Source: Simplicispira metamorpha (GTDB taxonomy: Bacteria > Pseudomonadota > Gammaproteobacteria > Burkholderiales > Burkholderiaceae_C). Taken from it: a stretch of DNA of 64,000 nucleotides. The notes below the pieces were generated by a model. That model made no database searches. It was not told the DNA's origin and saw only the letters and a program-made list of their open reading frames with translations. Each line of letters opens with the position of its first letter. The stretch's first letter is position 1. A program made the position numbers and the translations under genes. The stretch is from contig NZ_SLXH01000010.1 in the NCBI RefSeq assembly GCF_004341365.1, positions 1 to 64,000 on the forward strand. The letters run 5' to 3'. This document shows positions 2 to 50,545 of this stretch, in pieces.

Positions 2-532
2 GACGCCCTCATATCCGGCAAGCTGTACGGCCAGCCCACCGAGCGCACCAGCAAGAGCGGCAAACCGTTCGCCCTGGCCAAGGTGCGCGCCGCTGGTGGC
101 GACGGTGAAAGCCTGTTCGTGAACGTGATTGCCTTCGATGCCGCGCCCTGCACCGCACTGCTGGCGCTGGGAGACGGCGACAGCGTTGCCTTGTCGGGCA
201 GCCTCACGCCCAAGGTGTGGACGGACAAGGAAGGCAACGCCCGGCCCGGCCTCGACCTGGTGGCGCACCAGGTGCTGACGGCCTACGCTGTGAGCCGCAA
301 ACGCGACACCGTGCGACAAAACGCGACAGCCCCAGCACCAGCACCAGCCCCAGCACCAGCCCCAGCACCAGCACCAGCACCAGCACCAGCACCAGCACCA
401 GCACCAGCACCAGCACCAGCACCAGCGCCAGCGCCAGCGCCAGCGCATGGCAGGCCCAGGGATGAAGCGTGGCGGGCGATGGCGCCGCGAGATCGAAGCG
501 GCCTCGATGACGGCGCACCGCTGGACTGGTGA
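2..532 (+). CDS. SSB-like OB-fold protein, 5' end outside window
   Basis: The reading frame is open from the first bases, so the start lies upstream. The visible part begins with a beta-strand pattern (ISGKLYGQP, KPFALAKVRA, LFVNVIAF, GDSVALSGSL, then WTDKEGNARPGLDLVAHQVL) typical of the short single-stranded-DNA-binding proteins carried by integrative elements and plasmids of Burkholderiales. The OB fold is followed by 39 alternating Ala-Pro residues and an acidic tail ending GAPLDW, which resembles the acidic partner-binding tip of SSB proteins. It probably binds ssDNA for the element that carries it. The function is inferred from sequence pattern only. The next gene starts 10 bases downstream, suggesting co-transcription. 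Confidence 0.7.
   Translation, partial: DALISGKLYGQPTERTSKSGKPFALAKVRAAGGDGESLFVNVIAFDAAPCTALLALGDGDSVALSGSLTPKVWTDKEGNARPGLDLVAHQVLTAYAVSRKRDTVRQNATAPAPAPAPAPAPAPAPAPAPAPAPAPAPAPAPAPAPAPAHGRPRDEAWRAMAPRDRSGLDDGAPLDW
329..445 (+). repeat. CCAGCA/CCAGCC/CCAGCG hexamer tract (Ala-Pro coding)
   Basis: Nineteen and a half hexamers in frame with the SSB-like gene encode Ala-(Pro-Ala)19. The third codon position varies (GCC, GCA, then GCG at the 3' end), while the middle is a run of identical CCAGCA units. The tract is long enough to be prone to slippage. Whole-unit changes would only lengthen or shorten the linker without shifting the frame. Confidence 0.9.
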
Positions 533-542
533 GGTGCCCAGC

Positions 543-824
543 ATGACCACCACCACACCGCCGCTGCGCGCCCAGGTGCTGGCGCTGCGCCGCACGCAAT
601 CGGCCCGCGCCGTGGCCCAGGCCCTGAACATCCCCTTGGGCACGGTCAAGGCCATCAGCAGCCGCGCAGGCATCACGCGCGACAACGCCAAGATGCGCGC
701 GTTCTTCCGGCTGCCCGAGATCGTGGCCAGCGCCTGCGCCGCACTGCAACCCCCGGTTGCAGGGGCCACCAACAGAGCGGCGCCCGTGGGGGCGCTCCTT
801 TATGAGCTGCCTATTCGGCAGTGA
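543..824 (+). CDS. small helix-turn-helix protein of the accessory element
   Basis: This is a 93-residue protein. Residues about 8-40 (RAQVLALRRTQSARAVAQAL then LGTVKAISSRAGI) look like a homeodomain-type or sigma-like helix-turn-helix with a basic recognition helix, so DNA binding is likely. The ATG at 543 was chosen because it follows the SSB-like stop by 10 bases; an in-frame ATG at 447 would overlap that gene by 86 bases. The last residues (about LYELPIRQ) are encoded by the terminal CRISPR repeat, whose sequence supplies the TGA stop at 822-824, so the native C-terminus may have been lost. I do not recognise a named family. Confidence 0.5.
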   Translation: MTTTTPPLRAQVLALRRTQSARAVAQALNIPLGTVKAISSRAGITRDNAKMRAFFRLPEIVASACAALQPPVAGATNRAAPVGALLYELPIRQ

Positions 825-1427
825 ACGAAGTGACGCATTCGCCAATCGACACCCGCATTTTCTGAGCTGCCTATTCGGCAGTGAACCGTGGCGTCTTGCA
901 AGGCAAACCGCTCGTCAATTTCTGAGCTGCCTATTCGGCAGTGAACGAACGCCTGCGATAGCGCAAGGCTATCTGTCTTTTCTGAGCTGCCTATTCGGCA
1001 GTGAACGTAGCAAGCATCCCAGAAACAGGAGCCACAATTTTCTGAGCTGCCTATTCGGCAGTGAACATCGCCTGCTTGGACGTTGAGCCTAGCTTTTTTT
1101 TCTGAGCTGCCTATTCGGCAGTGAACGCACGACAGCTTGGACTTCCACCAACCGGCAAATTTCTGAGCTGCCTATTCGGCAGTGAACTACCTGTTTGGCA
1201 AGCGCGACAGTTTGGTGTTTTTCTGAGCTGCCTATTCGGCAGTGAACCCGTCTATCCTTTTGCGGGGATAGCGGTTCACTTTCTGAGCTGCCTATTCGGC
1301 AGTGAACGAAGTGACGCACAGCCCAATCGACACCCGCATTTTCTGAGCTGCCTATTCGGCAGTGAACATGGCGGCGACCTGCGGGCGCTTCTTGAGAATT
1401 TTCTGAGCTGCCTATTCGGCAGTGAAC
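799..1427 (-). CRISPR. type I-F CRISPR array, 11 repeats and 10 spacers
   Basis: Eleven 28-bp repeats start at 799, 859, 919, 979, 1039, 1099, 1160, 1220, 1280, 1340 and 1400. Spacers are 32 nt except the one at 1127-1159 (33 nt). Read on the minus strand the repeat starts GTTCACTGCC and ends GGCAGCTCAGAAA, with the 5-bp stem CTGCC/GGCAG that the Cas6f (Csy4) endoribonuclease recognises in subtype I-F. The only altered repeat is at 799-826 (one substitution, CTCAT for CTCAG), which marks the leader-distal end, so transcription runs leftwards from a leader at about 1428-1560. Spacers 827-858 and 1308-1339 are 28/32 identical. No cas gene occurs in this window. Confidence 0.97.
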
Positions 1428-1697: not shown

Positions 1698-1720
1698 CCC
1701 GGCCCCTGCGCCGGGTTTTT
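1698..1720 (+). terminator. intrinsic terminator
   Basis: A 6-bp GC stem CCCGGC (1698-1703) / GCCGGG (1710-1715) is followed by five T residues. It would end rightward transcription coming through the small frame at 1451-1654. Confidence 0.7.
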
Positions 1721-1854: not shown

Positions 1855-2350
1855 GGAATTTTCGGAGGCGGTCACGCGCACGGACGGCAAGGTTACGGCA
1901 AGGAATCCAACGCAGTACGCGCACGGGAATTTTCCGAGGCGGTCACGCGCGGGGGAGCGGTATCCACGCTGGTATCCAAGGAATCAGGCATTTGCTGGAT
2001 GGTTACCAGCGCATGGTTACCAGGCCGGTTACCAACGAAAGCGCACTTTTCTGGAGAGCACTTAACAGCCTGCTTAACAGCGAAAGCGCACTTTTCCGCA
2101 GGTGTTTCCAGCCGCAGGTTTCCAAGCGGGTTTCCACGGGAACCTGTCAAAACCTTACCTTCGGGACAGTGCGCAAGGATGCGGTGCGCGGTCTGGTACA
2201 CACGGAAAGCGGCGTGTGAACTTGTCAAAACTTTACATCTTGGGCGGTACGCACAGGGGTGGTACGCAAGCTGGTACGCACGGAATCGGGGGCGCTGGCG
2301 CAGGTTAGCGCTGGCAGGTTAGCGCTGGCAGGTTAGCGCCGTGGTTAGCG
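1855..2350. repeat. modular array of short tandem words at 12-15 bp steps
   Basis: Successive blocks each repeat their own word: GGTATCCA (1959, 1971), GGTTACCA (2001, 2015, 2027), CTTAACAGC (2061, 2073), GTTTCCA (2104, 2118, 2130), a looser GGTGCGC/GGTACACA block (2168, 2183, 2195), GGTACGCA (2246, 2261, 2273) and GGTTAGCG (2303, 2317, 2331, 2343). The last step in every block is 12 bp and the preceding one 14-15 bp. The final copy is usually followed by CGGAA, CGAAA or a close variant. A 25-bp unit at 1855-1879 recurs at 1926-1950 with one difference. CGAAAGCGCACTTTTC occurs at 2036 and 2081. The purpose is unknown. Confidence 0.85.
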
Positions 2351-3847: not shown

Positions 3848-6607
<2,760 letters not shown>

Positions 6608-8951: not shown

Positions 8952-9419
8952 ATGAGCGATGCCACCTCTGTTACCACTGCCAGCGCTGCCCCTGCACGCA
9001 CCCATACAGAAGTCGCTGTGGGCGTGCTGCTGCGCGCCGATGGCGCCATGCTGTTGTCCACCCGCCCGCCGGGCAAGGCGTATGAAGGCTACTGGGAGTT
9101 TCCCGGCGGCAAGATCGAAACGGGTGAAACCGTGGAGCAGGCCCTGCGCCGTGAACTGATCGAAGAACTGGGCGTGACCATCGGCCCCGCCCAGGTCTGG
9201 AAAGTCACCGAGCACGACTACCCGCACGCACTGGTGCGTCTGCACTGGTGCAAAGTCACCGAATGGAGTGGCGAGTTCGAGATGCGCGAAGGCCAAATCA
9301 TGGCCTGGCAGCAGTTGCCGCTGCAAGTGCGCCCGGTGCTGCCCGGTGCCTACCCGGTGCTGCAATGGCTGGCCGAGGAGCGCGGCCAGACTTTTGACCC
9401 TGAATCGCTCCTGGAATGA
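8952..9419 (+). CDS. mutT: Nudix hydrolase (MutT-like, 8-oxo-dGTP clean-up)
   Basis: The Nudix box is complete at residues 53-75 (GX5EX7REUXEEXGU, with G53, E59, R67-E68, E71-E72, G74). The 155-residue length and the downstream WQQLPLQVRPVLPG segment match MutT-type enzymes that hydrolyse oxidised dGTP and prevent A:T to C:G mutations. The substrate is inferred from family resemblance. About 20 N-terminal residues before the fold are low-complexity. The gene ends at a hairpin repeat that probably terminates it. Confidence 0.88.
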   Translation: MSDATSVTTASAAPARTHTEVAVGVLLRADGAMLLSTRPPGKAYEGYWEFPGGKIETGETVEQALRRELIEELGVTIGPAQVWKVTEHDYPHALVRLHWCKVTEWSGEFEMREGQIMAWQQLPLQVRPVLPGAYPVLQWLAEERGQTFDPESLLE

Positions 9420-48703: not shown

Positions 48704-50503
48704 ATGCATGCACTTGATATTCCCGCACTGCGCGATAACGCGCCCCGGCGCTGCCCTTTCAGCGCCACTGCCACGCAGGCCGACAGTCTGCGCGATGTTC
48801 CCCGTGGATGGCTGGAGCAGGTAGCCATGGCCGCTGCACCCGACGGCATCTTGCTGGTAGACCGGCAGGGCACCATCATGATGGCCAACCCGGCCATGGA
48901 GACTATCTCGGGTTATGCCGCCGCGCAGCTCATGGGCCAGCCCATCAGCATCTTGCTGGCACCGCACCTGGGTGCCAAACATGGCCAGCATGTGCGCCGC
49001 TATTTCCAAAACCCCACGCGCCGCCCCATGGGCATGGAGCGCGACCTGTGGCTGCACCGGCGCGATGGCGCCAAAGTGCCTGTCGATGTGGCACTGGGTT
49101 ACTCCGAGGCGTATGGCGGCGCCAGCGTGGCGTTTGTGCGCGACATCTCTGAAGTGCGCCGCCTGGAGGCCCAGACCTGCTACCAGGCATCGCATGACAA
49201 CCTCACCGGGCTGGTCAACCGCTGGCAGTTTGGCCAGCGGCTGGAGCAGGCCATCCACACCTGCACGCCCCAGGGGCGGCCATTTGCGCTGCTGCTGCTG
49301 GATCTGGACGACTTCAAGGCCATCAACGACGGCTATGGCCATGCCGCTGGCGACCAGGTGCTGGTGGAGGTGGCGCGGCGCCTGAAAAATGCCCTGCGCG
49401 CTGGCGACACGGTGGGGCGATTGGGGGGCGACGAGTTCACGGTGCTGCTGCCCGAGTTGAACCAGGTGCAAGAGGCCATGCTCGTTGCGGCCAAGCTTTT
49501 GCAGTTGTTGCAAGAGCCGTTCCGGGTGCAAGGCTTTGAGCTTCACTGCGGCGCCAGTGCGGGCATTGCCGTGTTTCCGCAAGATGCGCCAGACGCTGAC
49601 ACGCTCATGCGCTATGCCGACATGGCCATGTACTGTTCCAAGCGGCGTGGACGGGGCCATTTCTCTCTCTATGAGCCTGCCATGGGCGAGAAGATGGCAG
49701 AAAAAATCCTGCTGCACGACCACCTCAAGCTGGCGCTGGCCTATGGCGGACTGGCGCTGCATTACCAGCCGCAGGTGGATGTGCTGACCGGGCAGGTGGT
49801 GGGCGCCGAGGCGTTGCTGCGCTGGACAGACCCGGTGCTGGGCGAGGTGCCGCCCTCGCGCTTCATTCCGGTGGCCGAGGCCACCGGACTTATCCTGCCC
49901 TTGGGCGAGTGGGTGCTGAACGCAGTGTGCCGCCAAATCCGCGTCTGGCAACAGGCCGGTACGCCGCTGCGGGTGGCGGTTAACGTGTCGGTGCAGCAAT
50001 TGCAGCAAAACGACTGGGTGGAGCAGTTGCAAGGGGCATTGCAGCGCCACGGAGTGCCCCCCGACCTGCTGGAACTGGAACTGACCGAGTCCGAGGCCAT
50101 GGCCGACCCGGTGCTGGCGCGCCATTCGCTGGCACGCGTCAAGGCGCTGGGCATCAGCGTCACGCTGGACGACTTTGGCACCGGGCATTCCTCCCTGGCC
50201 TATCTGCAACAGTTGCCCATTGCGCGCATCAAGATCGCGCGGGACTTTGTCGAGCCCATGTTGCGCGGCGACAGCGAGTCTGCGCTGGTGCGGGCGGTGA
50301 TCGAGTTGTCGCACACCCTGGGCCTGACCGTGGTGGCCGAGGGCGTAGAGGCGCCAGATCAGTTGCGCCAACTGCGCCGGTTTGGTTGCGATATTGTCCA
50401 GGGGTGGTTGTATTCGCGGGCCGTGCCCGCCCCCGAGATGGCACAGTTGATCGGTACCCCCGAGCCTTTTGCCGCGCTGTGCAGGGCCGCAGCACTGCCG
50501 TAG
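48704..50503 (+). CDS. PAS-GGDEF-EAL cyclic-di-GMP enzyme
   Basis: It has 599 residues: a PAS sensor (about 50-165), a GGDEF domain with intact LGGDEF and an inhibitory RxxD site (RAGD, five residues upstream), and an EAL domain with [23 protein letters not shown] and VVAEGVE. Both diguanylate cyclase and phosphodiesterase activities are possible. GGGAGGAG lies 6 bases before the ATG at 48704. There is no signal peptide or membrane helix, so it acts in the cytoplasm. Confidence 0.95.
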
Positions 50504-50545
50504 CCGTAGCCGTAGCCGTAGCCGTAGCCGTAGCCGTAGCCGTAG
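50498..50545 (+). repeat. CCGTAG microsatellite, eight units
   Basis: Eight perfect hexamers begin at the last Pro codon of the GGDEF-EAL gene; the TAG of the first unit is its stop codon. The tract occupies most of the gap to the convergent FNR-type gene. Confidence 0.97.

Follow-up and report, generated by a model that had tools for sequence, protein, structure and literature searches.

Tandem arrays of candidate small-terminase binding sites with several specificities in satellite-like islands of Beta- and Gammaproteobacteria

The cosB site of phage lambda is a packaging site of the small terminase subunit (TerS), of the same kind as the sites that we propose here. In the portions of two papers available to us, pac of phage P22 lies inside the terS gene and pac of SPP1 carries direct repeats, a DNA site in or beside terS being regarded as read by TerS, as we propose here (PMC9611059, PMC4737164). 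The same portions describe pac binding by TerS of the helix-turn-helix (HTH) type as weak or non-specific (PMC9611059, PMC4737164), report that the DNA-binding domain of SF6 TerS bound pac DNA without sequence preference (PMC4737164), and call the choice of viral DNA by small terminases unclear and controversial after four decades (PMC9611059); HK97 TerS, according to the available text on it, recognizes DNA by another mode (PMC11331095). Among mobile elements, SaPIs and PICIs are described in the accessible part of one paper as integrative islands of about 14 kb with their own terS or a helper packaging site (cos in SaPIbov5), and islands carrying either of these are already known (PMC5052747). 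Mobilizable plasmids with several oriT (hitcher elements, pEC156) likewise hold several sites for several helpers, but for conjugation and not for phage packaging, and the available sections of a review of such plasmids describe no multi-site packaging array (PMC11389934). The open-access literature that we searched held no report of tandem packaging sites of multiple specificity or of a TerS helix code.

We analysed the window, i.e., the whole 64,000-nucleotide stretch of Simplicispira metamorpha DNA, in which an earlier note had described seven blocks, each repeating a word of its own. These seven blocks were found at 1959-2350 (Table 1), while 1855-1958, which had been counted in the array as well (claimed span 1855-2350), is devoid of any word. 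The words are mostly of the form GGTNNNCA, with NNN common within a block and different between blocks; GGTNNNCA or GGTNNNCG fits every word in the window except CTTAACAG and a few degenerate copies. The final step of 12 bp, as claimed, was seen in 7/7 blocks, and a step of 14-15 bp precedes it in all five blocks having such a step. Exact 7-mer self-matches in 1850-2360 numbered 17 at lag 12 and 26 at lag 14, where 100 Markov shuffles averaged 0.07 and 0.02, and complete same-word triples numbered 3 in the window vs. 0 in 60 whole-window Markov shuffles, both strands considered. From sequence comparisons, we propose with a probability of about 0.7 that the blocks are TerS binding sites in a satellite-like island, bearing the specificities of many phages, so that many helpers could package the island. 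In comparison with pac and cos signals, the locus would thus differ in having several specificities in one non-coding array outside terS genes, and in a correspondence between helix and word that is readable across a TerS family; in comparison with SaPIs and PICIs, also integrative islands, it differs in having up to six or seven specificities per array and no detected terS.

Table 1. Features of the array and its surroundings in the window, with the three variable bases of each word and the closest counterpart among phage terS genes.
Feature	Position	Strand	Repeats or evidence	Word	Counterpart in terS
phrog_6204-family HTH gene, N-terminal remnant	447..824	+	ORF; tblastn, phmmer, PHROG		
CRISPR array	799..1427	-	11 repeats; Rfam CRISPR-DR4		
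Terminator-like hairpin and T run	1698..1720	+	Read directly from sequence		
Module 1	1959..1985	+	GGTATCCA x2 at 1959, 1971, then AGGAATC	GAT on opposite strand (TGGATACC)	Same word, helix THGAINKR
Module 2	2001..2040	+	GGTTACCA x3 at 2001, 2015, 2027, then ACGAAA	GTA (TGGTAACC)	Helices SHVAI- or SHAAI-
Module 3	2061..2085	+	CTTAACAG x2 at 2061, 2073, then CGAAA	Variant word; TGTTACAG at this block in sister arrays	Closest site found: CCGTAACG in L652
Module 4	2104..2142	+	GTTTCCA x3 at 2104, 2118, 2130, then CGGGAA	GAA (TGGAAACC)	Helix (S/T)HTAINKR
Module 5	2169..2208	+	GTGCGCA / GGTGCGCG / GGTACACA at 2169, 2183, 2195, then CGGAAA	CGC, partly degenerate in window; copy L002 nearer uniform GGTGCGC	No terS carrying CGC in strict viral scan
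Module 6	2246..2286	+	GGTACGCA x3 at 2246, 2261, 2273 (15 + 12), then CGGAAT	CGT (TGCGTACC)	Helix (S/T)EGAIRKR
Module 7	2303..2350	+	GGTTAGCG x4 at 2303, 2317, 2331, 2343 (14 + 14 + 12)	CTA (CGCTAACC)	Single terS with CTA: L445, helix SDAGIIKK

A protein-coding array was rejected, as 14-bp steps break the reading frames and the words shift frame; likewise, an Rfam RNA family was rejected, as the gathering score was reached only by the CRISPR repeats and one tRNA. The plasmid search with the array gave no match, and the phage DNA search returned four records; each matches module 7 alone, and the genes concerned carry pentapeptide-repeat or polyketide-synthase annotations.

Scanning with the exact pattern TGCGTACC-N4-TGCGTACC-N5to8-TGCGTACC disclosed 58 stretches in genome_contigs and at least 120 in viral contigs, and a scan of viral contigs for the TGGATACC triple disclosed at least 120 stretches as well. 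In the viral stretches listed, the module lies in one frame of an ORF of at least 90 codons in 112/120 with the CGT word and 107/119 with the GAT word. Two representative ORFs of this kind matched PHROG phrog_1206, the terminase small subunit (E 2.5e-67 and 7.2e-63), and in the records of Escherichia phage HK639 and Salmonella phage SEN34 the gene is annotated terS, with terL as the next gene; at least 217 distinct modules lie inside ORFs with the TerS N-terminal motif. The module is therefore positioned within terS, as a packaging site in or beside this gene would be. Most modules in phage genes have a first step of 15 bp, so that 15 + 12 keeps the reading frame, and the words spell Leu-Val-X...Val-X..Val-X, with X varying with the word. 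Thus the idea that steps of 14 + 12 exclude coding is correct for the locus in the window but does not extend to the phage module (15 + 12), which sits in a coding gene. A scan that left two of the three variable bases (the first and second) free returned at least 120 viral contigs, 109 of those listed having three identical words (GAA 59, GCA 23, GTA 14, CGA 8, TTA 5). Strict viral-contig scans for TGNNCACC and TGTNTACC triples returned 0 each; the array words CGC, TCA, TTT and TTC were not found in terS of the phrog_1206 family, and a terS of this family was likewise not found in the genome that contains the window. In a family search, the repeated word was at the expected place in 10/23 terS matches, elsewhere in two and absent in 11, distant terS relatives being those devoid of the word repeat. 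Three relatives (L652, L657, L666) have shifted words (CCGTAAC; CTGAACA) together with other helices (TNHVAITRK; SSTRIKQVAD), which suggests that the code reaches past GGTNNNCA.

The word of a phage site goes with the first residues of the recognition helix of the TerS that the same gene encodes. The CGT word was accompanied by helix (S/T)EGAIRKR in 47/53 distinct TerS, GAT by THGAINKR in 60/66, GAA by (S/T)HTAINKR in 35/38, CGA by (S/T)DTAIRKR in 8/8 and GCA by SHTAIQK(R/K) in 10/13, while the GTA word (12 TerS) goes with helices of the SHVA- or SHAA- types and the TTA word (5 TerS) with SHV- types, SHV(A/S/T)I-. Among proteins at most 60% identical elsewhere, the nearest helix gave the right word in 179/195 cases, vs. 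only 49/195 for the nearest rest-of-protein control (by alignment, with helix and site masked); at a limit of 50% identity, the figures were 162/195 vs. 27/195, and an ungapped-identity version of this leave-one-out test yielded 181 for the helix and 35 for the rest of the protein. Counting against a reading through the helix, the rest of the protein with no identity limit gave the right word in 145/195. In TerS pairs with an identity of at least 80% once helix and site are excluded, the helix always differed when the words differed (223 pairs; mean of 2.6 of 8 residues), vs. a mean helix difference of 0.12 in 527 same-word pairs. The GAT and GAA words both spell Val-Ser, with only the Val codon differing (GTA or GTT, by word definition, as terS sets found by word have the Val codons at the site fixed by the search), and the helix tracks this codon, with THG for GAT vs. 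THT or SHT for GAA; the DNA, and not the encoded protein, therefore covaries with the helix.

When terS genes were picked by protein patterns instead of words, 80 loci reduced to 31 distinct genes, of which 30 had three concordant words and 1 had two, with helices agreeing with the code, although most of these duplicate word-found proteins and 3 are new after duplicate removal. In an AlphaFold model (mean pLDDT 78.3, pTM 0.39) the second HTH helix spans residues 31-41 and begins with the covarying residues, and we surmise that this recognition helix would touch the bases. A PDB sequence search with the TerS alignment gave 10 weak matches, none of them a terminase, and Foldseek vs. PDB gave 0 matches at E <= 0.001. 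Recognition of the words by TerS is strongly supported by these comparisons and, because residues of the recognition helix predict the word, the words are likely TerS binding sites of the pac/cos kind. These data lent support to two proposals of the earlier note, namely that the constraint is on DNA, the words being best read as phage TerS sites, and that the blocks are sets of binding sites with different specificities. Its suggestion of copying within a block as the cause did not hold, since the same words and architecture turn up in phages and elements unrelated to each other, in association with particular TerS helices. For the same reason, a neutral, minisatellite-like repeat array with local gene conversion, which would account for the similarity of words inside each block, is hardly credible: it is contradicted by elements of other Beta- and Gammaproteobacteria and by phage terS genes, which share the words, the steps and GAA, and by the use of one of six terS words in 32/48 non-CGT modules of multi-module loci (these modules not being independent).

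The 58 genome stretches divide into 23 terS genes and 35 other loci, and 18/35 of the latter have full modules of at least two words. Named records with arrays come from Zoogloea, Pseudomonas, Stutzerimonas, Azotobacter, Azomonas, Variovorax, Aquitalea, Giesbergeria and Simplicispira, in addition to MAGs named at a broader level; a Zoogloea record (L147) has six full modules and a TTACA pair. We examined whether arrays might be debris, i.e., decayed terS fragments of former prophages heaped at one spot, as the GGT..GAA part does look like the terS codons Val-X..Thr-Glu. After the third word, GAA is kept per base in 73/85/84% of 84 array modules vs. 75/91/70% of 134 terS modules (both counts leaving out L160 and L200), and in 69/86/84% of 46 array modules with non-CGT words. 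Before the first word, in contrast, the 134 terS modules carry T, C, A and G at positions 1, 2, 7 and 8 in 94, 79, 94 and 98%, vs. 29, 53, 21 and 26% in the 84 array modules; the NNA scan had prescribed both the 15-bp step and part of the upstream sequence, and the flank comparison was therefore repeated with CGT and GAT modules alone. Arrays thus keep the words and GAA but not the upstream terS codons, and are therefore DNA sites and not terS remains. In addition, a first step of 14 bp was seen in 23/84 array modules vs. 0/134 terS modules from scans leaving this step free, and the words are common to several species, in mostly the same order. An origin as debris is, in our judgment, very improbable.

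In all 24/24 loci having at least two full modules (70 modules), all modules are on one strand. Viral contigs L444 (~6158) and L446 (~10445) each have a single GCTAACC triple, flanked by an integrase-like gene on one side and a tRNA-like sequence on the other, and in a Bosea record (L180, 3758-3790) a single CGT triple adjoins a tRNA-like sequence; these may represent this type of element in a version for a single helper.

With regard to the elements that carry the arrays, two of them stand in tandem in tRNA-Thr on a contig that is apparently Giesbergeria anulus, and are about 11.9 and 11.4 kb in length. They are bounded by copies of the tRNA-Thr 3' end, 11.9 kb downstream and again 11.4 kb beyond that (69 bp at 95.7% and 48 bp at 100%), and each has the order att, array, cargo, phrog_6204 gene, primase, integrase, att, with the phrog_6204 gene truncated in the first element and an SH3-domain ORF between att and array in the second. 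Capsid, tail, portal and large terminase had no Pfam or PHROG match among 10 ORFs of the first element (three short or cut ORFs left out of these scans) and all 11 listed ORFs of the second. Both elements thus combine an integrase, att repeats and a replication gene and show no full set of structural genes, as a satellite would. Hallmark genes of PICIs include an AlpA-type regulator and functions in capsid remodelling or packaging redirection. The first element contains an excisionase-like HTH_17 ORF, and an 88-residue ORF matched excisionase phrog_66 at 2.8e-8 and, more weakly, a terS family at 3.6e-4. We make no claim that the elements are PICIs.

Counts of neighbour genes and of distinct modules follow an earlier split of 21 terS and 37 other loci, L160 and L200 having since been classed as terS. 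By this split, 12 of the 37 have a relative of an integrase or primase within 8 kb and 25 have neither, and a phrog_6204 gene is present in 7/37; integrase, primase and phrog_6204 genes were not found near the 21 terS loci. TerS queries matched 21/21 terS loci and, among the other 37, only L160 and L200. Queries for terL and portal matched 1/37 (L200), but as they find only 4/21 terS loci, their silence near arrays is weak evidence. In 13 loci of the genus, TerS, TerL and portal queries, the latter two insensitive, matched none, and the phrog_6204 gene is present in 10/13. The array is downstream of this gene on the same strand in 16/16 scored loci, 12 of them distinct (L028 unscored). Profile comparison of the phrog_6204 protein with TerS aligned 45 columns at E 3e-4 with a probability of 38.8%, so that a TerS-like role of this protein is a suggestion only.

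Taken together, we propose that a site consists of three copies of the 8-bp GGTNNNCA at steps of 13-15 and then 12 bp, followed by nnGAA, with NNN setting which TerS reads the site via the first residues of its recognition helix. In phages, the one site inside their own terS gene would act as a pac- or cos-type packaging signal, with binding of TerS starting packaging. The island has its tandem sites in the same direction near the att-side end and encodes an integrase, a primase and cargo, with terS not detected. During growth of a phage whose TerS matches one of the modules, the phage terminase would bind that module and cut and package island DNA, and the array would thereby widen the helper range to the benefit of the island. 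The use of one strand and the place near att would be in keeping with packaging in one direction from a circular or concatemeric island, and a row of sites may fit the pac type more easily, because the cos type would require a cut site at a defined distance.

The main rival to a packaging site is a decoy, whereby the array soaks up TerS of an infecting phage or misdirects its terminase onto host DNA, cutting phage yield for the defence of host or element. Such a role would account equally for many specificities side by side, and genes near arrays include type I restriction (L028, L187) and toxin-antitoxin-like genes; also nearby are a HipA-like gene, a Gp49/HTH pair and, scoring under the Pfam cut-off, a BrnT-like gene. 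PADLOC, run on eight proteins, flagged type I restriction genes in addition to a single weak group of matches. A sponge, however, needs no common orientation, which stands against the single strand found in every multi-module locus, and it leaves the place near att in a mobile element unexplained; in addition, three words per specificity seem few vs. the phage's own replicated copies. We thus regard a decoy as unlikely, though the most serious of the alternatives.

Phage P4 and P4-like satellites resemble the array elements in size (11.6 kb), in having an integrase and a primase, and in an iteron of the same TGNNNACC shape, raising the question of whether the words are iterons of a P4-type replication origin for a primase-helicase like P4 alpha. 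Compatible with this are the type 1 repeat TGTTCACC of P4, which has this shape and is the commonest such word in 79/80 loci of close alpha relatives, a TGTTCACC triple in one array of the genus (L012/L030/L189), the position of P4 crr, likewise between an operon terminator and attP, and the primases that array elements encode. The repeats of P4, however, are ori/crr iterons of one main word, on both strands and at irregular steps, while the arrays have varied words on one strand at fixed steps and do not show this iteron pattern. Replication proteins also differ among the elements (DUF927+PriCT_2, Toprim, DUF3987, RepO-like) while word sets overlap, and exact modules are found in terS genes, covarying with the TerS helix. 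Such an origin is accordingly improbable in our view, far more so than a decoy. Reading of the words by the element's own primase was rejected on the same ground of differing replication proteins and overlapping word sets. Integrase arm sites were considered since P4 arm repeats are also 12 bp apart, and were dropped once the terS matches appeared. In P4 itself (L038), the TGTTCACC repeats of ori and crr are at 4314-4405 and 9310-9413, and TGTTCACC is also the word of one array module in L030.

Returning to packaging sites for several helpers, we consider it rather probable, with somewhat less assurance than for the locus itself, that satellite-like islands with multi-specificity packaging arrays for unrelated phages are widespread in Beta- and Gammaproteobacteria, and that arrays and terS together reveal a code, of about four helix residues to three bases, for HTH-type small terminases. 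The natural variation yields an explicit, testable correspondence of helix to base for small terminases, and the arrays open an experimental route to the reading of DNA by viral packaging proteins. The same-word triple renders arrays searchable and predicts the phages able to move given islands. If true, a multi-helper array would be the phage counterpart of plasmids with several oriT; an island with viral packaging addresses side by side might be carried in virus particles of many kinds, and such an array could help explain the spread of islands bearing restriction genes and comparable cargo.

Eight places in the genome of the window, the window included, match the array at E <= 1.7e-6 with 74-100% identity. 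Among 299 genomes searched (own and relatives), five matched at E <= 1e-5, comprising the own genome and four of the same genus, two of which appear to be Giesbergeria anulus and Simplicispira psychrophila; an exact TGCGTACC pair is found in those same five of 26 genus genomes. Scanning 399 family genomes with the general pattern gave 17 matches, 3 with three identical words, 2 with two and 12 chance-like. In one orientation, word order tends to follow GTTTACC, GTTAACC, GTTAAGC, GCTAACC, GCGTACC, GCGCACC, GGAAACC, GTTCACC, GTTACAG, GTCAACC, GGTAACC, GGATACC, and every array of the genus holds part of this ordered list, with L028, L029 and part of L031 deviating; the GTCAACC block, for example, is present in L004 and absent from the window. 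Several loci are duplicates (L155=L029, L189=L030, L192=L026, L202=L027, L146=L064), L170 and L190 belong to one genome, and the window and L033-L036 to another. In L010, a degenerate AGCTCTCGGGTGCGTGCGC-like repeat recurs about every 60 bp at 700-1000 between two module groups, and may be what is left of a CRISPR array.

In the window, the contig end truncates the element, and an interruption disrupts its phrog_6204 gene; this copy may therefore be defunct, and several of its modules are degenerate. In sister elements the phrog_6204 HTH gene stands ahead of the array, whereas in the window its homology ends directly before the CRISPR array, and its L035 homologue matches only 528-761 (91%, tblastn). 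Similar hairpins, as read directly, lie between operon and array in other copies. The CRISPR array, which we take to be of type I-F, has no part in the proposed mechanism. One CRISPR repeat type adjoins three arrays of the genome, at 799-1427 in the window, at 3572-5100 in L032 and in L033 (minus strand), with 11, 25 and 11 exact repeat matches, respectively, one of those in L033 standing apart. A 32-nt direct repeat at 1848-1879 and 1919-1950 (91% alike, 71 bp apart, devoid of words) precedes module 1. At 330-440, a long Ala-Pro-repeat coding run ends a reading frame that is presumably a single-stranded-DNA-binding protein. Lastly, a lag scan disclosed tandem hexamers of the CCGTAG / CCATAG type at 50498-50534 in the window and at 12896-12980 in L037.
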